From a virus: a stretch of 64,000 nucleotides of DNA. This document shows positions 2,580 through 64,000 of this stretch, one piece after another. A model generated the notes under the pieces. It ran no database searches, had not been told where the DNA came from, and saw only the letters and a program-made list of their open reading frames with translations. Positions within the stretch are counted from its first letter, which is position 1, and each line of letters begins with the position of its first letter. The stretch lies in the IMG/VR virus record IMGVR_UViG_3300030328_002122, positions 62,366-126,365 of that record; one strand, written 5' to 3'. The position numbers were made by a program, and so were the translations under genes.

Positions 2580-3026
2580 ATGACAAACTTAAGCACTTTT
2601 AGAAACGCACTTCAAGCGTTTGACGTAAATCACTTAACACCTTATGCAGTTGGATTTGATCGACAATTTGATAGATTGTGGGATTATGCAAATCATCAAG
2701 CAGAATCAACAGGTTTTCCACCTTATAATATTGTGAAAGATGGTGACTACAAATTTACTATTGAAATGGCCTTGGCTGGATATAGTAAAGATGATATTGA
2801 GGTAGAAATCGCAGAAGGCGTCTTATCAATTAAATCTATTAAAGAATCAAAAGATGAAGATGATAAACTTTATCGTGGTATTGCAACAAGAAACTTTACA
2901 AGAAAATTTACTCTTGCAGATGATATTGTTGTAAATGGTGGTTCATTAAAAGATGGTATGCTTTCTATTAAATTAGAAAGAGTAATACCAGAGGAAAAGA
3001 AACCTCGTTTAATTGATATCAAGTAA
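2580..3026 (+). CDS. hsp20: Small heat shock protein Hsp20 (alpha-crystallin family)
   Basis: 148 residues. The alpha-crystallin domain spans about residues 45-140 and matches IbpA-type chaperones: PPYNIVKDGDYKFTIEMALAG opens it (shown to 20 residues or so), then the strand VLSIKS and the segment FTRKFTLAD. Such holdases keep unfolding proteins soluble. Phage Hsp20 is common in marine T4-like myoviruses, where it may assist virion assembly (inference). A strong RBS (AAGGAG) precedes the ATG. The gene is monocistronic: promoter at 2489-2520, terminator immediately after. Confidence 0.93.
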   Translation: MTNLSTFRNALQAFDVNHLTPYAVGFDRQFDRLWDYANHQAESTGFPPYNIVKDGDYKFTIEMALAGYSKDDIEVEIAEGVLSIKSIKESKDEDDKLYRGIATRNFTRKFTLADDIVVNGGSLKDGMLSIKLERVIPEEKKPRLIDIK

Positions 3027-3036
3027 TTGTTATCTG

Positions 3037-3064
3037 AAAGTGCCTCTTGACAGAGGCACTTTTT
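3037..3064 (+). terminator. Rho-independent terminator after hsp20
   Basis: An 11-bp perfect stem (AAAGTGCCTCT at 3037-3047 with its complement at 3052-3062), a 4-nt loop, then a T run. The loop side contains the TTGACA of the next promoter. Confidence 0.9.
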
Positions 3065-3075
3065 TATGTTATAGT
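3047..3075 (+). promoter_or_regulatory. sigma70-type promoter for the clamp/loader operon, nested in terminator
   Basis: TTGACA at 3047-3052, 17-bp spacer, TATAGT at 3070-3075. The -35 box is the loop of the hsp20 terminator hairpin, so termination and re-initiation share the same bases. The first gene downstream starts at 3107 behind TTGGAGAG. Confidence 0.75.
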
Positions 3076-3106
3076 ATAAGTAGTATGTGAAATTTTTGGA
3101 GAGATT

Positions 3107-3382
3107 ATGAAAAAACTACAATATCGTTATAATGAAGAACAAATTCTTAATGAATTAAAGTCGTATGTAGACAAAACATATGACGCACATTATTCCCACA
3201 ACAAATTTCAAGCATCAGAATTTATCATGGACAGCGGCCATGGCGAAGGTTTTTGTATCGGAAATGTGATGAAATACGCACAACGATATGGAAAAAAACA
3301 AGGAAGAAATAGAAATGACTTGTTTAAAATAGTACATTATGGTATAATGGCAATCTATAATCATGACAAATATAAGGAGTGA
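3107..3382 (+). CDS. DUF3310 family small phage protein
   Basis: 91 residues. The pattern FCIGNVMKYAQRYGKKQGRN followed by DLFKIVHYGIMAI is the DUF3310 signature (FCxGNxxKYxxR...DLxKxxxY). This family is scattered through dsDNA phages and is sometimes annotated as nucleotide-kinase-like; its activity is unproven. It is the first gene of the replication operon and overlaps the ribosome binding site of gp45. Confidence 0.75.
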   Translation: MKKLQYRYNEEQILNELKSYVDKTYDAHYSHNKFQASEFIMDSGHGEGFCIGNVMKYAQRYGKKQGRNRNDLFKIVHYGIMAIYNHDKYKE

Positions 3383-3384
3383 AC

Positions 3385-4044
3385 ATGAATCTTAGTAATG
3401 ATACAAGAGAAGTTTTAAAAAACTTTTCATCTATTAATCAAAACCTAATGGTTAATAGTGGTAATGTGATTGGAACTATGTCTGCAATGAAAAACATTGT
3501 TGCAAAAGCAACGATACCAGACACGTTTCAAAATGAATTTGCAATATATGATTTGAATGAATTTTTATCTGCACTTTCTTTATTTAAAAAACCATCACTT
3601 AACTTTTCAGATAAAAGTGTAAAGTTAGATGAAGAGGGTGGTGGAAGTTCTCTTAACTATTTCTTTAGTGATCCATCTATTGTTACATCACCAAAGACAG
3701 ATATAACTATGCCTTCGGTAGATGTTGAGTTTACATTTACACAAGATACTTTTAATCAAATTATGAAAGCATCAGCTGTTCTTGGTACACCAGATGTTGA
3801 AGTAAAAGGTACTGCTGGTGGTGATGTTAATCTTGTGGTAACAGACCGAAAGAATGATACATCAAATGATTTTAGTATGAAAGTTGGTGAAAACTCATCA
3901 AGTACATTTTCACATTTCTTTAAAGTTGAAAATCTAAAACTTTTAAGTGGTGACTATAATGTACAAGTTTCCAATAAGGGAATATCTCATTTTAAAAATA
4001 TATCAAAGGATATAGAATACTTTATCGCTCTTGAAGCTTCCTAA
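3385..4044 (+). CDS. gp45: Sliding clamp, DNA polymerase accessory protein gp45
   Basis: About 219 residues, similar in length to T4 gp45 (228). The N-terminus (LSNDTREVLKNFSSINQNL) and the FAIYDLNEFLSAL segment are diagnostic of T4-type clamps. The trimeric ring encircles DNA, tethers gp43, and in T4 also activates late transcription with gp33 and gp55. An upstream in-frame GTG at 3379 lies inside the AAGGAG ribosome binding site (3374-3379), so ATG 3385, five bases further on, is the better start. The next genes encode its loader. Confidence 0.95.
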   Translation: MNLSNDTREVLKNFSSINQNLMVNSGNVIGTMSAMKNIVAKATIPDTFQNEFAIYDLNEFLSALSLFKKPSLNFSDKSVKLDEEGGGSSLNYFFSDPSIVTSPKTDITMPSVDVEFTFTQDTFNQIMKASAVLGTPDVEVKGTAGGDVNLVVTDRKNDTSNDFSMKVGENSSSTFSHFFKVENLKLLSGDYNVQVSNKGISHFKNISKDIEYFIALEAS

Positions 4045-4059
4045 GTTTAGGAGTATATA

Positions 4060-4998
4060 ATGAATGATGTGATTTTGTGGGTGGAAAAATATCGTCCATC
4101 CAAAATAAGTGATTGTATTCTTACAGATGATCTCAAAACAACTTTTCAAACATTTGTAAATGATGGGTTTATTCCTAATTTATTATTGTCTGGTGGGCCT
4201 GGTGTAGGTAAAACAACAATTGCAAAAGCAATGTTGAAAGAACTAGATGTAACTTACATGATGATAAATGGTTCTGAAGAGTCTGGTATTGATGTTCTTA
4301 GGAATAAAATTAAAAACTTTGCCTCAACTGTTTCTATGGATGGTAAAAGAAAATTTGTAATTCTAGATGAGGCAGATTATCTAAATCCACAATCAACTCA
4401 ACCAGCATTGCGTAATTTTATGGAAGAGTTTCATAAGAATTGTGGATTTATTCTTACTTGTAATTTTAAGAATCGTATTATAGAACCACTACATAGTAGA
4501 TGTTCTGGAATTGAATTTCGTATTCCAACTACTCAAAAACCAATACTTGCTAATGAGTTCTTTAAAAGAGTTACTACTATTCTACAAGAAGAAAATGTTG
4601 AGTTTAATACAAAAGTTGTTCAAGAGATTGTTATAAAATACTTTCCAGATTGGAGAAGAGTTCTAAACGAACTACAAAGATATTCTGCAACTGGAGCAAT
4701 CGATTCTGGCATATTAGTAAATATATCAGAAACAAACATGAAAGATTTGGTATCTTTTTTAAAAGATAGGGATTTTAAATCCATACGTAAGTGGGTTAAA
4801 AATAACTTGGATAATGATCCATCAAGAATATATCGAAAAATTTATGATACATTGTATGATGAGGTTGAACCAACTTCAGTTCCACGTTTGGTTATGGTAC
4901 TTGCAGATTATTCTTATAAGTCAGCTTTTGTTGCAGACCAAGAGATTAATATGCTTGCGTTTATGTATGAAGCATTTGGAGAAATAAGTTTCAAATGA
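4060..4998 (+). CDS. gp44: Clamp loader large subunit gp44 (AAA+ ATPase)
   Basis: 312 residues (T4: 319). It opens with WVEKYRPSKISDCIL, typical of RFC-like loaders. Walker A is GGPGVGKTT at about residues 45-53 and Walker B is VILDEADYL at about 101-109. The sensor region contains the arginine-finger segment HSRCSGIEFR. With gp62 it opens and loads the gp45 ring using ATP. The stop overlaps the gp62 start (ATGA), implying translational coupling. Confidence 0.96.
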   Translation: MNDVILWVEKYRPSKISDCILTDDLKTTFQTFVNDGFIPNLLLSGGPGVGKTTIAKAMLKELDVTYMMINGSEESGIDVLRNKIKNFASTVSMDGKRKFVILDEADYLNPQSTQPALRNFMEEFHKNCGFILTCNFKNRIIEPLHSRCSGIEFRIPTTQKPILANEFFKRVTTILQEENVEFNTKVVQEIVIKYFPDWRRVLNELQRYSATGAIDSGILVNISETNMKDLVSFLKDRDFKSIRKWVKNNLDNDPSRIYRKIYDTLYDEVEPTSVPRLVMVLADYSYKSAFVADQEINMLAFMYEAFGEISFK

Positions 4999-5384
4999 GT
5001 TATGAACTTAAAGAGTATTTAAAAAGTATTAATCGAACAAAGGAAAATCTGATGGATTCAGATGATCCTATGTGGGAAAAGAAATATTTACCATATATCG
5101 TTAATAAATGTCTTGCACCATTTACAGACACAATTATGTTTGTGAATGTAATGAATGGACATCACCACCTAGATAAAAAACTACAATATGATTTTTTACT
5201 AAATATACTTAGACCTAAAAATAGATACGAGCCTTGGTCAAGAGGCCGAAAATTAAAAGACTTGGAGTTTGTAAAAGAATATTATGGTTATAGTAATGAA
5301 AAGGCTAAAGTTGCTCTTCAGATACTTAGTAATGACCAGATAAAAACTATCAAGAATAGTTTGAGTAAAGGTGGAAGAAAATGA
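4995..5384 (+). CDS. gp62: Clamp loader small subunit gp62
   Basis: 129 residues, shorter than T4 gp62 (187). Position carries much of the assignment: it lies between gp44 and regA, with 4-bp overlaps on both sides, exactly as in T4. The segment KKYLPYIVNKCLAPFTDTIMF and the later LDKKLQYDFLLNILRPKNR match marine T4-like gp62 proteins. It is the non-ATPase subunit of the loader complex. Confidence 0.88.
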   Translation: MSYELKEYLKSINRTKENLMDSDDPMWEKKYLPYIVNKCLAPFTDTIMFVNVMNGHHHLDKKLQYDFLLNILRPKNRYEPWSRGRKLKDLEFVKEYYGYSNEKAKVALQILSNDQIKTIKNSLSKGGRK

Positions 5385-55194: not shown

Positions 55195-55507
55195 TATCTA
55201 TAGTGTAAATGCACAACCCACTACTGGTTGGGTAATGAAACCAACTCAATGTGGTAATGCAGATGTTGTTATAGAAGGTCTGAAATCAGCAGGAGAAGAT
55301 CCTTTTGTTTGGATGAATGGTCGTTCTATGAGTGTAGAAGGTATATTTCTAGATACCAGATTTGTTTTAGCTATGAACACAAAAACACTTGATTGGACTC
55401 TTTTAGAGTTTACTAGAGATAATAAATTTGCGTGTGTACTAGGATCTGGTAATGGAACAATTAATATGAATACAGAAATAAATAAGAAAAAAGGTGTTGA
55501 CTTATAA
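55151..55507 (+). CDS. Small secreted protein of unknown function
   Basis: 118 residues. A clear Sec signal peptide (MQKIILIITFLLTLNIYSVN, cleavage after N-A) starts within the exonuclease gene. The mature part has TTGWVMKPTQCGNADVVIEG and WTLLEFTRDNKFACVLGSG, with two cysteines that could form a disulfide. A periplasmic protein made by the phage; the role is unknown. It lies directly before the tmRNA promoter. Confidence 0.7.
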   Translation: MQKIILIITFLLTLNIYSVNAQPTTGWVMKPTQCGNADVVIEGLKSAGEDPFVWMNGRSMSVEGIFLDTRFVLAMNTKTLDWTLLEFTRDNKFACVLGSGNGTINMNTEINKKKGVDL

Positions 55508-55527
55508 TATTCTATATGTTATAAATA
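55497..55527 (+). promoter_or_regulatory. Promoter of tmRNA, sigma70-type with late-like octamer
   Basis: TTGACT (55497-55502), 17 bp, TATAAA (55520-55525), which is also part of a perfect TATAAATA (55520-55527). The predicted RNA start is about 55532. Confidence 0.7.
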
Positions 55528-55531
55528 AGGT

Positions 55532-55925
55532 ACAGTTTGTTGATACGAATTGATGTTTGGATAGGACTTGGGGGCAGTACCCAACGCCTCCACCATAGAC
55601 ACACTAGGTTTTGGTATATCAATTGATATATAACCATACCTTTGTACACAATGGTTAACATCATCTGATCGGAAGGTAGGATCAGCTAGTGTGTCTTTGA
55701 TGGGGGCGAAATAGGATCGACTAACAAATGAATATGAGAGTAGAACTGTCGCATGACCTCGTTATCGGTCAAAACAAATAAGTGCAAACAATAATTTTGC
55801 GCCTGTAGATTTCGCCATAGCGGCTTAATCGTACTGAGTTTTGGTGGTGTACTTGGAAACAGAAACACCACTACATGAATAGGGTCACTACTTAATAGGT
55901 GCGTGTGGAGTCATGGTTAACTCCA
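55532..55925 (+). ncRNA. ssrA: tmRNA (ssrA), circularly permuted two-piece form
   Basis: The acceptor piece comes first and ends CGCCTCC-A-CCA at 55585-55595, preceded by a T arm (TTGGG 55568-55572, CCCAA 55580-55584). The coding piece starts GGGGGCG at 55702 and pairs with the acceptor end in a 7-bp stem whose third pair is G-U, the alanine identity element. The tag frame (55784-55825, stop TAA at 55826) reads A-N-N-N-F-A-P-V-D-F-A-I-A-A, ending in AA as proteolysis tags do. The order acceptor then coding is the alphaproteobacterial arrangement. The outer ends (55532, 55925) are approximate. It would rescue stalled ribosomes and tag proteins. Confidence 0.93.
55597..55696 (+). repeat. Inverted repeat closing the tmRNA intervening segment
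   Basis: AGACACACTAG (55597-55607) and its perfect complement (55686-55696) bracket the spacer that separates the acceptor and coding pieces (55596-55701). The stem would extend the acceptor helix of the precursor and is probably removed during maturation. Confidence 0.85.
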
Positions 55926-60039: not shown

Positions 60040-61914
60040 TTAAATAGGAAATGCAAAATTAGGTATAGTATTATCTCTAACAGGCCAAGGAACAACTCCA
60101 CCACCAGAACCACCACCACTTACATTATTATTATTTACAACACTATTATTAGTGATTATTGATCCACCACCACCAGTTCTTTTTTCTTCTGCAAGTTCAC
60201 TATTTGCAGTTGCAACTGCACTACCTAATAGTGTTTTTAACTCTGTAGTTAATTGTTCAACAAGTTTTGCATCTTGATTTCTTCCTTTATAATCAAGGCC
60301 TCTGTAAACATTTTCACCAGACTCTGATCTTGCAATTCTATCTTTTGCTTCTTGTATCTCTGTTTGAACTTGAACTCTTTTTTGTTCATCAGTTGGTGTT
60401 TTTACTAATTCCTCTAATTCAACATCAGCTGGTTCTTGAACTGTTTCTTCAACTGGTGTGTCATTTTTCAGAAATGGTATATACCCCTCTAAAAAGTCTG
60501 GTATAACTGCTCTTGCAATATCTTTAACATTTATATCAAATAAACCACCAAAGAAATCTGTAACTTTTTTTACTGTCTTTTCAAACAATTCACTTATGTT
60601 TGGAAGTTCTGGTAGTTTTAAGTTGGTTAATACATCTCTTACATCTTTAAATGGGTCAAATGTGGTTAGAAAAGTTCGTAAACTACCAAAGATATCTAGG
60701 TTTGCAAAGAACTCTCTGATATCACCAAAAAGATCTAGGTTTGCAAAGAACTCTCTAATACTACCAAAAAGATTTAAGTTTGCAAAGAAACCTCTTATAT
60801 CTTCAATTTTCTGACCTACTGTATCTGGTATAGAAGTAAAAAATCCTACAAGGTCATCATATATACCAGTTATTCTTTCAATAAATGCATCTGATGGAGT
60901 AAATGCAGCTATGGCTGCAGTAAACATATTACTAATAAAATCACTTACATTTTGCAAAAATCCATTGATAAGATCCTCAAAAGAAAAACTATCAAGTTTT
61001 GCAGCTATTTCTTCAAATCCAAGTTTTGTCAAGAGCCAAGATGTTAGATCTTTTAACAAATCAAGTGGAAGTCCTATGATAGTAGAATAAAATTCTATAC
61101 TAGCTTGTTTTATCGCTTCCATAATACTGCCAGTTTCTCTCCAAGTATCCATGAAACTCTTAAATGCATCATACAATCCTTTTGCAGTTACCAAAATTCC
61201 TGCTACTATTGCAACGATAACTGCACCTGTAGCAGCTGCACCTAATCCTATGACTCCACCAATTGCAGTTAGACCAGCAGCGATTGCAGTAAAAGCCCCA
61301 CCAAGACTTGTTACGATACCAACTATTTTAACTATCGCCCAACCACCTAAAACTGCACTTAATGTTGTCATTTGAGCAGTATGATCAGTAAATAAAGTTT
61401 TTAATTCTTCCCATGATGGTGAAGTGATAAAGCCTAATATTGCAGGCCAAAAAGGATGCAAAACAAATTTTTTCACACCTTCTACAATCGCAAGTGCTTT
61501 TTCTGTTATTTTAGGCCATTCCTCACTATCCATAAATGATAGTAATCCAATCAGAGCAGCACCAAACAAGAATTTTTTTGCAAGATTCCAAATACCACCA
61601 GCTGCTTTCTTTGCAGAATCTAATGCATTTTTTTCTATAATACCAGTTAGAGTACCTACACCCTTTGTAACACCAAAAATACCTTTTTTTATAACTTTAA
61701 ATATTGACAGTTGTTCTCTTTTATCTTCTGTTTCTTTTGCATCAGTTTTGTTTTTATCTTGTAGTTCAACACCTTGTGCTTGGGCCATTTGATTTTGAGT
61801 ATCAGATATATTTTCTAATACTTTCAAAAGTCCTTCTTGACCTTTATTATTTGCTTGTTGTTCTGAAACTAAGGTTTTGAAATCTTTAGCGCCACCAAAA
61901 CTTACTTCTACCAT
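60040..61914 (-). CDS. Tail tape-measure-like protein
   Basis: 624 residues on the minus strand. An N-terminal coiled coil (about 1-75) is followed by long hydrophobic Ala/Gly-rich segments (AALIGLLSFM, GGAFTAIAAGLTAIGGVIGL, AATGAVIVAIVAGILVTA), typical of tape-measure proteins. Three near-repeats of 13 residues (FFANLNLFGSIRE, FFANLDLFGDIRE, FFANLDIFGSLRT) occur at about 371-413. The C-terminus is polar with a Gly/Asn-rich stretch. Its place after gp26 with a frameshift signal supports the role. T4 gp29 has 590 residues, so the size fits. Confidence 0.7.
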   Translation of the reverse strand: MVEVSFGGAKDFKTLVSEQQANNKGQEGLLKVLENISDTQNQMAQAQGVELQDKNKTDAKETEDKREQLSIFKVIKKGIFGVTKGVGTLTGIIEKNALDSAKKAAGGIWNLAKKFLFGAALIGLLSFMDSEEWPKITEKALAIVEGVKKFVLHPFWPAILGFITSPSWEELKTLFTDHTAQMTTLSAVLGGWAIVKIVGIVTSLGGAFTAIAAGLTAIGGVIGLGAAATGAVIVAIVAGILVTAKGLYDAFKSFMDTWRETGSIMEAIKQASIEFYSTIIGLPLDLLKDLTSWLLTKLGFEEIAAKLDSFSFEDLINGFLQNVSDFISNMFTAAIAAFTPSDAFIERITGIYDDLVGFFTSIPDTVGQKIEDIRGFFANLNLFGSIREFFANLDLFGDIREFFANLDIFGSLRTFLTTFDPFKDVRDVLTNLKLPELPNISELFEKTVKKVTDFFGGLFDINVKDIARAVIPDFLEGYIPFLKNDTPVEETVQEPADVELEELVKTPTDEQKRVQVQTEIQEAKDRIARSESGENVYRGLDYKGRNQDAKLVEQLTTELKTLLGSAVATANSELAEEKRTGGGGSIITNNSVVNNNNVSGGGSGGGVVPWPVRDNTIPNFAFPI

Positions 61915-61923
61915 TTTTCTGTC

Positions 61924-62250
61924 CTACTTTTTCGCAAAGGTTTCTTTTGCATAGAAAGCTGCAACTATAGCTGCAACTGATACAAAGTATGTTGGAGCCA
62001 TATCACCTAATATACCACTTGCTTTATCTAATCCAATCCACTCTGCAAGAACTACTGAAAAAGGATATAATAACATACCAAACAATGCAAACCATGCCAT
62101 GTTGCGTTGTGCATCGGCCTTCTTATCTTCATTCTCTAATCTCATCATTTCTTTACTCATTGCAATTTCCTCATCGCTTACTATCCCATCTCCATCCACA
62201 TCAAAATCTGCATATTGTGAACCTTTTTCTAATTTCTTTTGTGCAGCCAT
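61924..62250 (-). CDS. EF-hand membrane protein
   Basis: 108 residues from ATG 62250 (minus strand), with GAGAGGAAAG upstream. A canonical calcium EF-hand loop DVDGDGIVSDEE sits at about 16-27, followed by a charged helix and two membrane segments (MAWFALFGMLLYPFSVVLAEW and TYFVSVAAIVAAFYA). Similar proteins exist in marine T4-like phages beside tail genes. Perhaps calcium-dependent in membrane contact (inference). Confidence 0.7.
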   Translation of the reverse strand: MAAQKKLEKGSQYADFDVDGDGIVSDEEIAMSKEMMRLENEDKKADAQRNMAWFALFGMLLYPFSVVLAEWIGLDKASGILGDMAPTYFVSVAAIVAAFYAKETFAKK

Positions 62251-62303
62251 TTTACTTTCCTCTCTATAATCCAAATGATGTTTAATTGATATAAAATCTA
62301 CCA

Positions 62304-62426
62304 CTAACAGTTACATTTACTACACTCGCAACCTGTACAAACATCATTTGCACATTGTTCACATTCTTTTTCACAATGACAATCATGTCCACACTTTTTA
62401 CATTTTCCGTTACAAGTACAACTCAT
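62304..62426 (-). CDS. Cys-rich metallothionein-like peptide
   Basis: 40 residues, 13 cysteines and two histidines, in a minus-strand ORF with a strong ribosome binding site (AAGGAGAG, six bases before ATG). It reads MSCTCNGKCKKCGHDCHCEK followed by ECEQCANDVCTGCECSKCNC. CxC and CxxC clusters throughout suit binding of several metal ions. No membrane or signal sequence. Lies between gp26/gp51-like and the EF-hand gene, in the late tail operon. Confidence 0.78.
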   Translation of the reverse strand: MSCTCNGKCKKCGHDCHCEKECEQCANDVCTGCECSKCNC

Positions 62427-62445: not shown

Positions 62446-62643
62446 TTATCCTTTTCCATCTGCTTTAGCTTGTCTTTCAGCGGTTTTTTCATCATCTAAC
62501 CATTGAAGAAGAAGTTTTGTGTATATTTCCCTCTCCCAAGGCATCATATATTCTAGTTCTGTTAAAGAATACTTATGATGTTGCATAAGTTGGAAATTTA
62601 ATTGATAATAGTTTTCCAACGTATTATGAGAGAGGGATACTAG
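62446..62643 (-). CDS. gp51: gp51-like -1 frame extension of gp26
   Basis: 65 codons open in the -1 frame relative to gp26, from the slippery site to TAA at 62446-62448. No start with a ribosome binding site is visible. The product reads NYYQLNFQLMQHHKYSLTEL, EYMMPWEREIYTKLLLQWL and a charged tail, resembling small baseplate-hub assembly proteins (gp51) or tail chaperone extensions that follow gp26 in T4-like phages. Expressed as a gp26 fusion of about 299 residues if the shift occurs. Independent initiation at an internal ATG (62586) is possible but lacks support. Confidence 0.65.
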   Translation of the reverse strand, partial: LVSLSHNTLENYYQLNFQLMQHHKYSLTELEYMMPWEREIYTKLLLQWLDDEKTAERQAKADGKG

Positions 62644-63344
62644 AAAAAATCTTGTAGTCCTTCTAATGTTAAATCACTTTCAACTTCAGTTTTAGGATTC
62701 TTCACAGTAATCTTATGTTTCACTTTAGGCATTGTTTCAAAAAAACTTTGCACTTTCACAAATTGTTCATGTGACATTGATTCAATAAAATCATCTAATT
62801 CTTTTTCTTCCATGTCGTTTTTAGTATAAACATTCTCTGCATCATATATTTGATTAACACAGCTTTTAATAACATTAAAAGTTGCAACTGCATCATTCTT
62901 TCCATCTGTAATTTTTACAACTTTGCTTATTTCTGGATAATCAAATACTATCCCTACATCATCACTAATTTTTATATTATTAGTATGATCTTTGTCTTTA
63001 ATACATTGTACTTCAGATAGATTTACATCTACTTTTACTTTTGTTTCTTCATCATCTGGACAAATTACTGTAACAGCAGTTGTTTCTCCAATAGACTTAC
63101 ATCTAATCTGTAAAAATACATATTCTATATCAAATGTTGGTAATTTTTTTGAATCTAATTTACCAAACGTACACGCATCAATAAGATCCTGTACTGCACG
63201 TATTAAAGATTGTTGACTTCCTTCTTGTTGTGCTAACATTAACATTTTTTCTTCTTTCACAAGAAAGGGTCTAAACTCTACTTTTTGTCCTGTAGAGGGT
63301 AATGTCAATTCATATTTAGCGGTTGCTAACTTTGGTAACGCCAT
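62640..63344 (-). CDS. gp26: Baseplate hub / tail assembly protein gp26 family
   Basis: 234 residues. The N-terminus KYELTLPSTGQKVEFRPFLV, then KEEKMLMLAQQEG and LDACTFGKL-like segment IDACTFGKLDSKKLPTFDIE, is the T4_baseplate (gp26) signature. A later part, FDYPEISKV and ESMSHEQFVKVQSFFETMP, completes the family pattern. In T4 it belongs to the hub assembly pathway; in other phages the equivalent position is taken by frameshifted tail chaperones. The stop is preceded by a slippery heptamer. Confidence 0.88.
   Translation of the reverse strand: MALPKLATAKYELTLPSTGQKVEFRPFLVKEEKMLMLAQQEGSQQSLIRAVQDLIDACTFGKLDSKKLPTFDIEYVFLQIRCKSIGETTAVTVICPDDEETKVKVDVNLSEVQCIKDKDHTNNIKISDDVGIVFDYPEISKVVKITDGKNDAVATFNVIKSCVNQIYDAENVYTKNDMEEKELDDFIESMSHEQFVKVQSFFETMPKVKHKITVKNPKTEVESDLTLEGLQDFF
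62643..62649 (-). promoter_or_regulatory. -1 ribosomal frameshift site
   Basis: On the minus strand the heptamer T-TTT-TTC is in frame with gp26 and is followed at once by its TAG stop. The X-XXY-YYZ pattern is canonical. A Shine-Dalgarno-like GAAGGA (62658-62663) lies 8 nt upstream, in the range known to stimulate -1 shifts in dnaX. Confidence 0.65.
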
Positions 63345-63369: not shown

Positions 63370-64000
63370 TTATCTTGCACCAGTACCGATTACTGATGTT
63401 AGGGTTTGTCCACCAGAAACAGTTTTGGGTGGATTTTGAGTTGCAAATGTTCTGGTATCACTATTATCCATTACTTGTCCATTTGCATCTATAAAAACAA
63501 AATCTCTGAAAACAAAAGAAACCTCTTGTCTTGCAATGTCCATATTTTGAGCGCTAAACTCTACTGCACCAACTGTTTTTGGAAAACATTCATTCAATCT
63601 AAGACCAGCTAATGGTAAACCATTTTTTCCTAATTGGAAAACTTCTATTGGTGTTACATACTGATTATAATATTCTAGATTGTAATTATTTGGTTTAACA
63701 ACAAGATCTTGCCACTTTAAGAAATACTGTCTTTCAAAATGTTCTGCTGATAAAAAGAATGTCATACTTATATCTTCTGCATATGTCAATCCCTGAGCCA
63801 TTTCATAAGTTGGGCCATATACTGTTTCGTTTGTAACAGTTCTTATATTTTTACCAGGCATGGTGAACGCTTCAACTCTAAAAGATACGTGTCTATCTGC
63901 GTCTGGATCTCTTATTGCTGGTGGTGATGTTATTTTTACTTCAAATCTATTTGCAAGTGCATGACCACCATACTTACTAAAACTTGCAATGAACTCATCT
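63370..64000 (-). CDS. Tail-tube family protein (gp19/gp54-like), 5' end outside window
   Basis: About 209 codons in the window; the frame stays open to the edge (FIASFSKYGGHALANRFEVK is upstream of the first visible ATG at 63861), so the true start lies beyond. FTMPGKNIRTVTNETVYGP, QGLTYAEDISMTFFLS and LRLNECFPKTVGAVEFS are typical of T4-like tail-tube gp19 and tube-initiator gp54 relatives. First gene of the leftward tail module in view. Which of gp19 or gp54 cannot be settled here. Confidence 0.8.
   Translation of the reverse strand, partial: DEFIASFSKYGGHALANRFEVKITSPPAIRDPDADRHVSFRVEAFTMPGKNIRTVTNETVYGPTYEMAQGLTYAEDISMTFFLSAEHFERQYFLKWQDLVVKPNNYNLEYYNQYVTPIEVFQLGKNGLPLAGLRLNECFPKTVGAVEFSAQNMDIARQEVSFVFRDFVFIDANGQVMDNSDTRTFATQNPPKTVSGGQTLTSVIGTGAR

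Follow-up and report, generated by a model that had tools for sequence, protein, structure and literature searches.

A probable lambda G/GT-type −1 frameshift in the gp26-family gene of an uncultured T4-like marine phage

Is the short open reading frame that follows gp26 in this T4-like phage a small gene of its own, or is it the second part of a gene whose two products are separated by a programmed −1 frameshift? The question is raised by a locus in the window, by which we mean the whole stretch of 64,000 nucleotides that was analysed (positions 62,366 to 126,365 of IMG/VR record IMGVR_UViG_3300030328_002122). The features of the locus, in window coordinates, are as follows.

63370–63999, minus strand: tail-tube-like protein (phrog_45, tail tube, E = 1e-35), adjoining gp26 on its 5' side and running off the window.
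62640–63344, minus strand: gp26-family gene, short form, 234 aa, ending GAT TTT TTC TAG.
62643–62649, minus strand: slippery heptamer T_TTT_TTC, in register and directly 5' of the stop codon TAG (62640–62642).
62446–62643, minus strand: extension in the −1 frame, of 65 codons and a stop, TAC-C/lambda T-like (phrog_634, E = 1.5e-26).
62304–62426, minus strand: Cys-rich ORF of 40 aa, between the chaperone gene and the tape-measure-like ORF.
61924–62304, minus strand: ORF of 126 aa with a weak EF-hand match, in the same interval.
60040–61914, minus strand: ORF of 624 aa, probable tape measure protein and expected client (weak matches to PHROG tape-measure families, best 7e-8).

The initial annotation had proposed a programmed −1 frameshift here, and its description of the junction is borne out: the heptamer directly precedes the gp26 stop, the −1 frame contains 65 open codons, and computed joining of the frames gives a fusion of 299 aa, consisting of gp26 plus the 65 codons after the heptamer. 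The −1 frame is open from just 31 nt 5' of the gp26 stop and closes at the stop codon at 62446. It was also said to lack a start signal; the earliest start-like codons after the slip are a TTG at codon 9 and an ATG at codon 20, neither of which has a Shine-Dalgarno sequence in the window. The proposed gene order of tail tube, frameshifted gene and tape measure stands, with two small ORFs between the last two. The window has 91 stop-to-stop frames that are 100 codons or longer; a canonical heptamer lies within 10 codons of the end in ten instances, and that of gp26 is the sole one after which the −1 frame stays open for long (64 codons; the runner-up has 16).

Conservation of the heptamer in T4-like relatives, the check suggested at the outset, was examined in 80 IMG/VR contigs and in isolates of several groups (Kyanoviridae, the Aeh1 and nt-1 groups of Straboviridae, Pootjesviridae, Menderavirus and Busanvirus). 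Considering complete junctions only, T_TTT_TTN is found at the same place in 99 of 101 non-T-even loci and in all 35 distinct groups (groups being less than 75% identical). The base after T_TTT_TT in the 99 loci is C in 76, A in 14, T in 7 and G in 2, and the distance from heptamer to 0-frame stop is nearly always 0–2 codons. Across the 35 groups, six different residues (S, D, N, A, R or T) occur at the codon just ahead of the two Phe/Leu codons, yet that codon always has T as its third base (with pooled codon usage, log10 P = −9.3) and the next codon is invariably TTT (log10 P = −6.1), both values being computed without regard to kinship among the groups. The third codon is TTC in 23 of the 35 groups, although the rest of these genes favours TTT for Phe. 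The heptamer therefore appears to be conserved beyond what the protein would impose, and because it is conserved across relatives a chance origin is untenable.

The same data bear on whether chance or an assembly artefact has simply split one gene, through a sequencing indel at a T run. A related record, Stenotrophomonas phage IME-SM1 (KR560069), does have five T instead of six and a fused frame (about position 3750 of the locus record). However, this is one of only two exceptions among the 101 loci; it is one base short of the other close Menderavirus records, two of which were read directly and have six T, so the five-T run is likely a homopolymer sequencing error. With the split at the same codon in 99 contigs and isolates from several phage families, an artefact is already refuted by conservation and we consider it extremely unlikely. 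The six-T run found in nearly all relatives could also be read as a site of transcriptional slippage, in which a base gained or lost would likewise join the frames and yield both products. Against this, the run is always in the register of the ribosomal heptamer, its last base is usually C, which holds it at six, and a seventh T is found in just 7 of the 99 loci, fewer than one would expect had polymerase slippage been under selection. Established G/GT cases are moreover ribosomal (PMC5009743). Polymerase slippage as the source of the two products thus seems highly improbable.

Public annotations take a different view and treat the downstream ORF as a small gene in its own right (gp51), whose own start ribosomes would use by re-initiating past the gp26 stop; public records accordingly annotate a "baseplate hub assembly catalyst" of ~46 aa from an internal ATG of the second ORF. 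In the distant relatives nt-1, phiM9, YB07 and XG4 an ATG does overlap the gp26 stop, as TAATG or TGATG, and could permit re-initiation. Across relatives, however, the second ORF has no conserved start codon or Shine-Dalgarno sequence, the start position differs from one relative to another, and ATG is sometimes missing until codon 33 or later; in the window, the TTG and ATG noted above fit a separate gene no better. Across 16 pairs, pN/pS lies far below 1 in the −1 frame alone of the three; in the pairs that are informative there, it is low already in the 17 codons that follow the slip, 5' of the commonest ATG. Conserved residues such as ALSH likewise start directly after the heptamer. Purifying selection thus acts on the −1 frame, and not on the others, beginning with the codons directly past the slip. 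A free ORF would in addition leave the invariant T run unexplained, and gp51 of T4 is itself a continuous protein with N and C parts. We therefore judge a separately initiated gp51 to be very unlikely in the window. The second exception among the 101 loci, Vibrio phage K351, differs in this respect: its gp26 ends TCA CTT TTC AAG TAATG (about 3040–3090 of the locus record), and since a canonical heptamer is absent and an ATG overlaps the stop, this lineage may use re-initiation.

The protein families and the predicted fold agree with a frameshifted chaperone gene. The 234-aa gp26 matches PF12322 (E = 6e-67) and phrog_150, "baseplate hub" (E = 1e-72), and the phrog_634 family matched by the −1 peptide is named "baseplate hub assembly catalyst". 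No solved structural relative of gp26 was found by sequence search. An AlphaFold model of gp26 (pLDDT 87.6) had no significant match by Foldseek alone, nor did a T4-type gp51 model compared with the PDB by Foldseek. The N-terminal ~90 residues of the gp26 model best match HK97 gp13 (2OB9, Z 7.8), 3FGX (Z 7.5) and YqbN (3KLU, Z 7.0), a VIA-align Z below 8 being suggestive, not proof, of a common fold. These three, aligned over 83–85 residues, lead the 999 aligned chains of a PDB shortlist, in which the fourth has Z 4.8, and all three are named phage tail assembly chaperones (PMC9603447). The model comparison is thus suggestive of an HK97 gp13/YqbN/Rbstp2171 chaperone fold in the N-terminal region, and gp26 is very probably the short form of a tail assembly chaperone (TAC-N/lambda gpG-like).

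Relatives with a separate gp51 and no slippery site, which the initial annotation had set against its own proposal, do exist. T4 genes 26 and 51 belong to the same family as the window gene, but they are two divergent genes and the slippery site is absent, gp26 ending GAG TTC TTT GAG TTA CTA TAA. T4 gp26 matches phrog_150 as far as position 235 of 282, whereas gp51 matches it over 13–280 and matches phrog_634 as well; gp51 thus joins the N part and the C part in a single frame, and gp26 is the N part only. The −1 peptides align with the C-terminus of T4 gp51 (hhalign P = 1.2e-9 for the end alone and 4.7e-8 for the full protein, with 0.38 for a reversed control) and gave no alignment with T4 gp26 (P = 0.6). 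The two T4 proteins are paralogues (P = 4.9e-23). Copy number follows the same division: a single gp26-family copy was found in 24 records, all of frameshift type or close relatives (K351 and IME-SM1 included), and two copies in 12 of 12 T-even-type records, some of these records being partial. The source record (145,194 bases, which may be incomplete) has one copy, and the T4-type two-gene arrangement was not encountered in it. By sequence, then, one copy goes with a frameshift-type locus, and two copies with none, in every record checked. Because gp51 has both parts, because its C part is homologous to the −1 peptide and because there are two copies, T4 appears to carry the short form (gp26) and the long form (gp51) as two genes. 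Since T4 gp51 would be the full-length long form in a two-gene arrangement, the frameshift reading gains from the T4 case. Both T4 proteins have been listed as hub assembly chaperones, with gp51 absent from the particle (PMC3004832).

Two further records show variation at gp51. RB43 has gp51 and gp26 one after the other in tandem, on one strand and overlapping at their ends (4001–5294 of the locus record), unlike the divergent pair of T4. In another record (L103, about 3001–3746), the T4-type gp51 is split over two frames near codon 126, which may be real or a sequencing error.

In an unrooted tree of gp26, gp51 and frameshift-type proteins, the frameshift type forms one group, gp51 another and gp26 nearly so (RB43 gp26 has a long branch). 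Rooting this tree was set aside as a guide to the direction of change. We tentatively suggest, at somewhat less than even odds, that the one-gene frameshift is ancestral in T4-like phages, that T-even phages lost slippage by duplication and divergence into gp26 and gp51, and that some few lineages, Vibrio K351 among them, are replacing it by stop-start re-initiation, so that three mechanisms in a single family would serve one need for two products.

Two elements flanking the heptamer in the window could stimulate slippage.

62658–62663, minus strand: GAAGGA, Shine-Dalgarno-like, possible slip stimulator, exactly 8 nt 5' of the heptamer, where the initial annotation had placed it.
62584–62628, minus strand: predicted RNA hairpin, possible stimulator, 14 nt 3' of the heptamer (−8.9 kcal/mol, z −4.7).

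Pairing with the anti-Shine-Dalgarno sequence peaks just 5' of the heptamer, with a mean of −5.2 kcal/mol across groups, but synonymous shuffles give −4.5 kcal/mol. Because the shuffles keep most of the signal, it appears to be mostly a by-product of conserved Glu-Gly codons, and we do not accept the element as a proven stimulator. On the 3' side, the RNA of relatives is more structured than shuffles just beyond the heptamer (mean z −1.5 to −1.65, about 0 elsewhere). A common stem-loop was rejected, as the predicted folds differ from lineage to lineage and none is shared.

Taken together, conservation of the site, coding selection, the lack of a conserved start, the predicted chaperone fold and homology to T4 gp51 strongly support the frameshift first proposed for this gene. 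We put the probability at about 0.92 that gp26 and the following ORF are one tail assembly chaperone gene with a lambda G/GT-type −1 frameshift, and that T-even phages use two genes instead. We infer that most ribosomes would terminate at TAG and release the 234-aa short form, while a minority would slip one base back on T_TTT_TTC and translate 65 more codons to give the 299-aa long form. By analogy with lambda gpG and gpGT, the tape measure protein would be coated by the short form in many copies and the long form in few, and the long form would recruit the tail tube subunit through its C-terminal extension.

The initial annotation was mistaken on one point, in knowing of no such frameshift for T4-type gp26/gp51. 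Vladimirov, Gautam & Davidson (2022, Virology 566:9–15, doi 10.1016/j.virol.2021.11.003) identified T4-like chaperone genes, as cited by PMC10885494 and PMC12846349. The former cites them for T4-like phages that, in place of frameshifting, have a short gene together with a long fusion gene, and the latter for TAC-N genes of T4-like phages in which the slippery sequence is poly-T. As cited there, the T4-like TAC-N/TAC-NC system shares with the present locus a short and a long form and, where the short-form gene ends, a poly-T −1 signal; here, the phage is an uncultured marine one whose nearest isolate, Melnitz-3, has 60% identity in gp26. Since T4-like chaperone genes and poly-T signals are, according to these citations, already published, the window case adds a well-supported example to a mechanism already known, and the gain lies in the breadth and strength of the evidence. 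With lambda G/GT and P2 E/E' the locus has in common the gene order, with a tape measure downstream, short and long forms from one gene via a −1 slip near its 3' end, and a chaperone-like fold; the heptamer here is T_TTT_TTC. The chaperone frameshift of Vandenendeviridae and Andersonviridae (PMC12846349) concerns other families and a motif, GTTTTT, unlike T_TTT_TTC.

The window also carries a phage permuted two-piece tmRNA of alphaproteobacterial type (55503–55919, plus strand), recognised by ARAGORN with the tag ANNNFAPVDFAIAA and by Rfam RF01849 (5.9e-33) and RF04321; such a tmRNA has been reported for the related phage Melnitz (PMC9004378).

A 2016 review described G-T frameshifting as widely conserved "except T4" (PMC5009743). 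The use of two genes would explain this apparent exception, and the old T4 "hub assembly catalyst" gp51 would acquire a definite function, that of the long form of the chaperone. Our results also point to a widespread annotation error, the C-terminal part in relatives having been called a separate short gene or missed, and suggest that the logic of lambda G/GT is at work in abundant marine T4-like phages.
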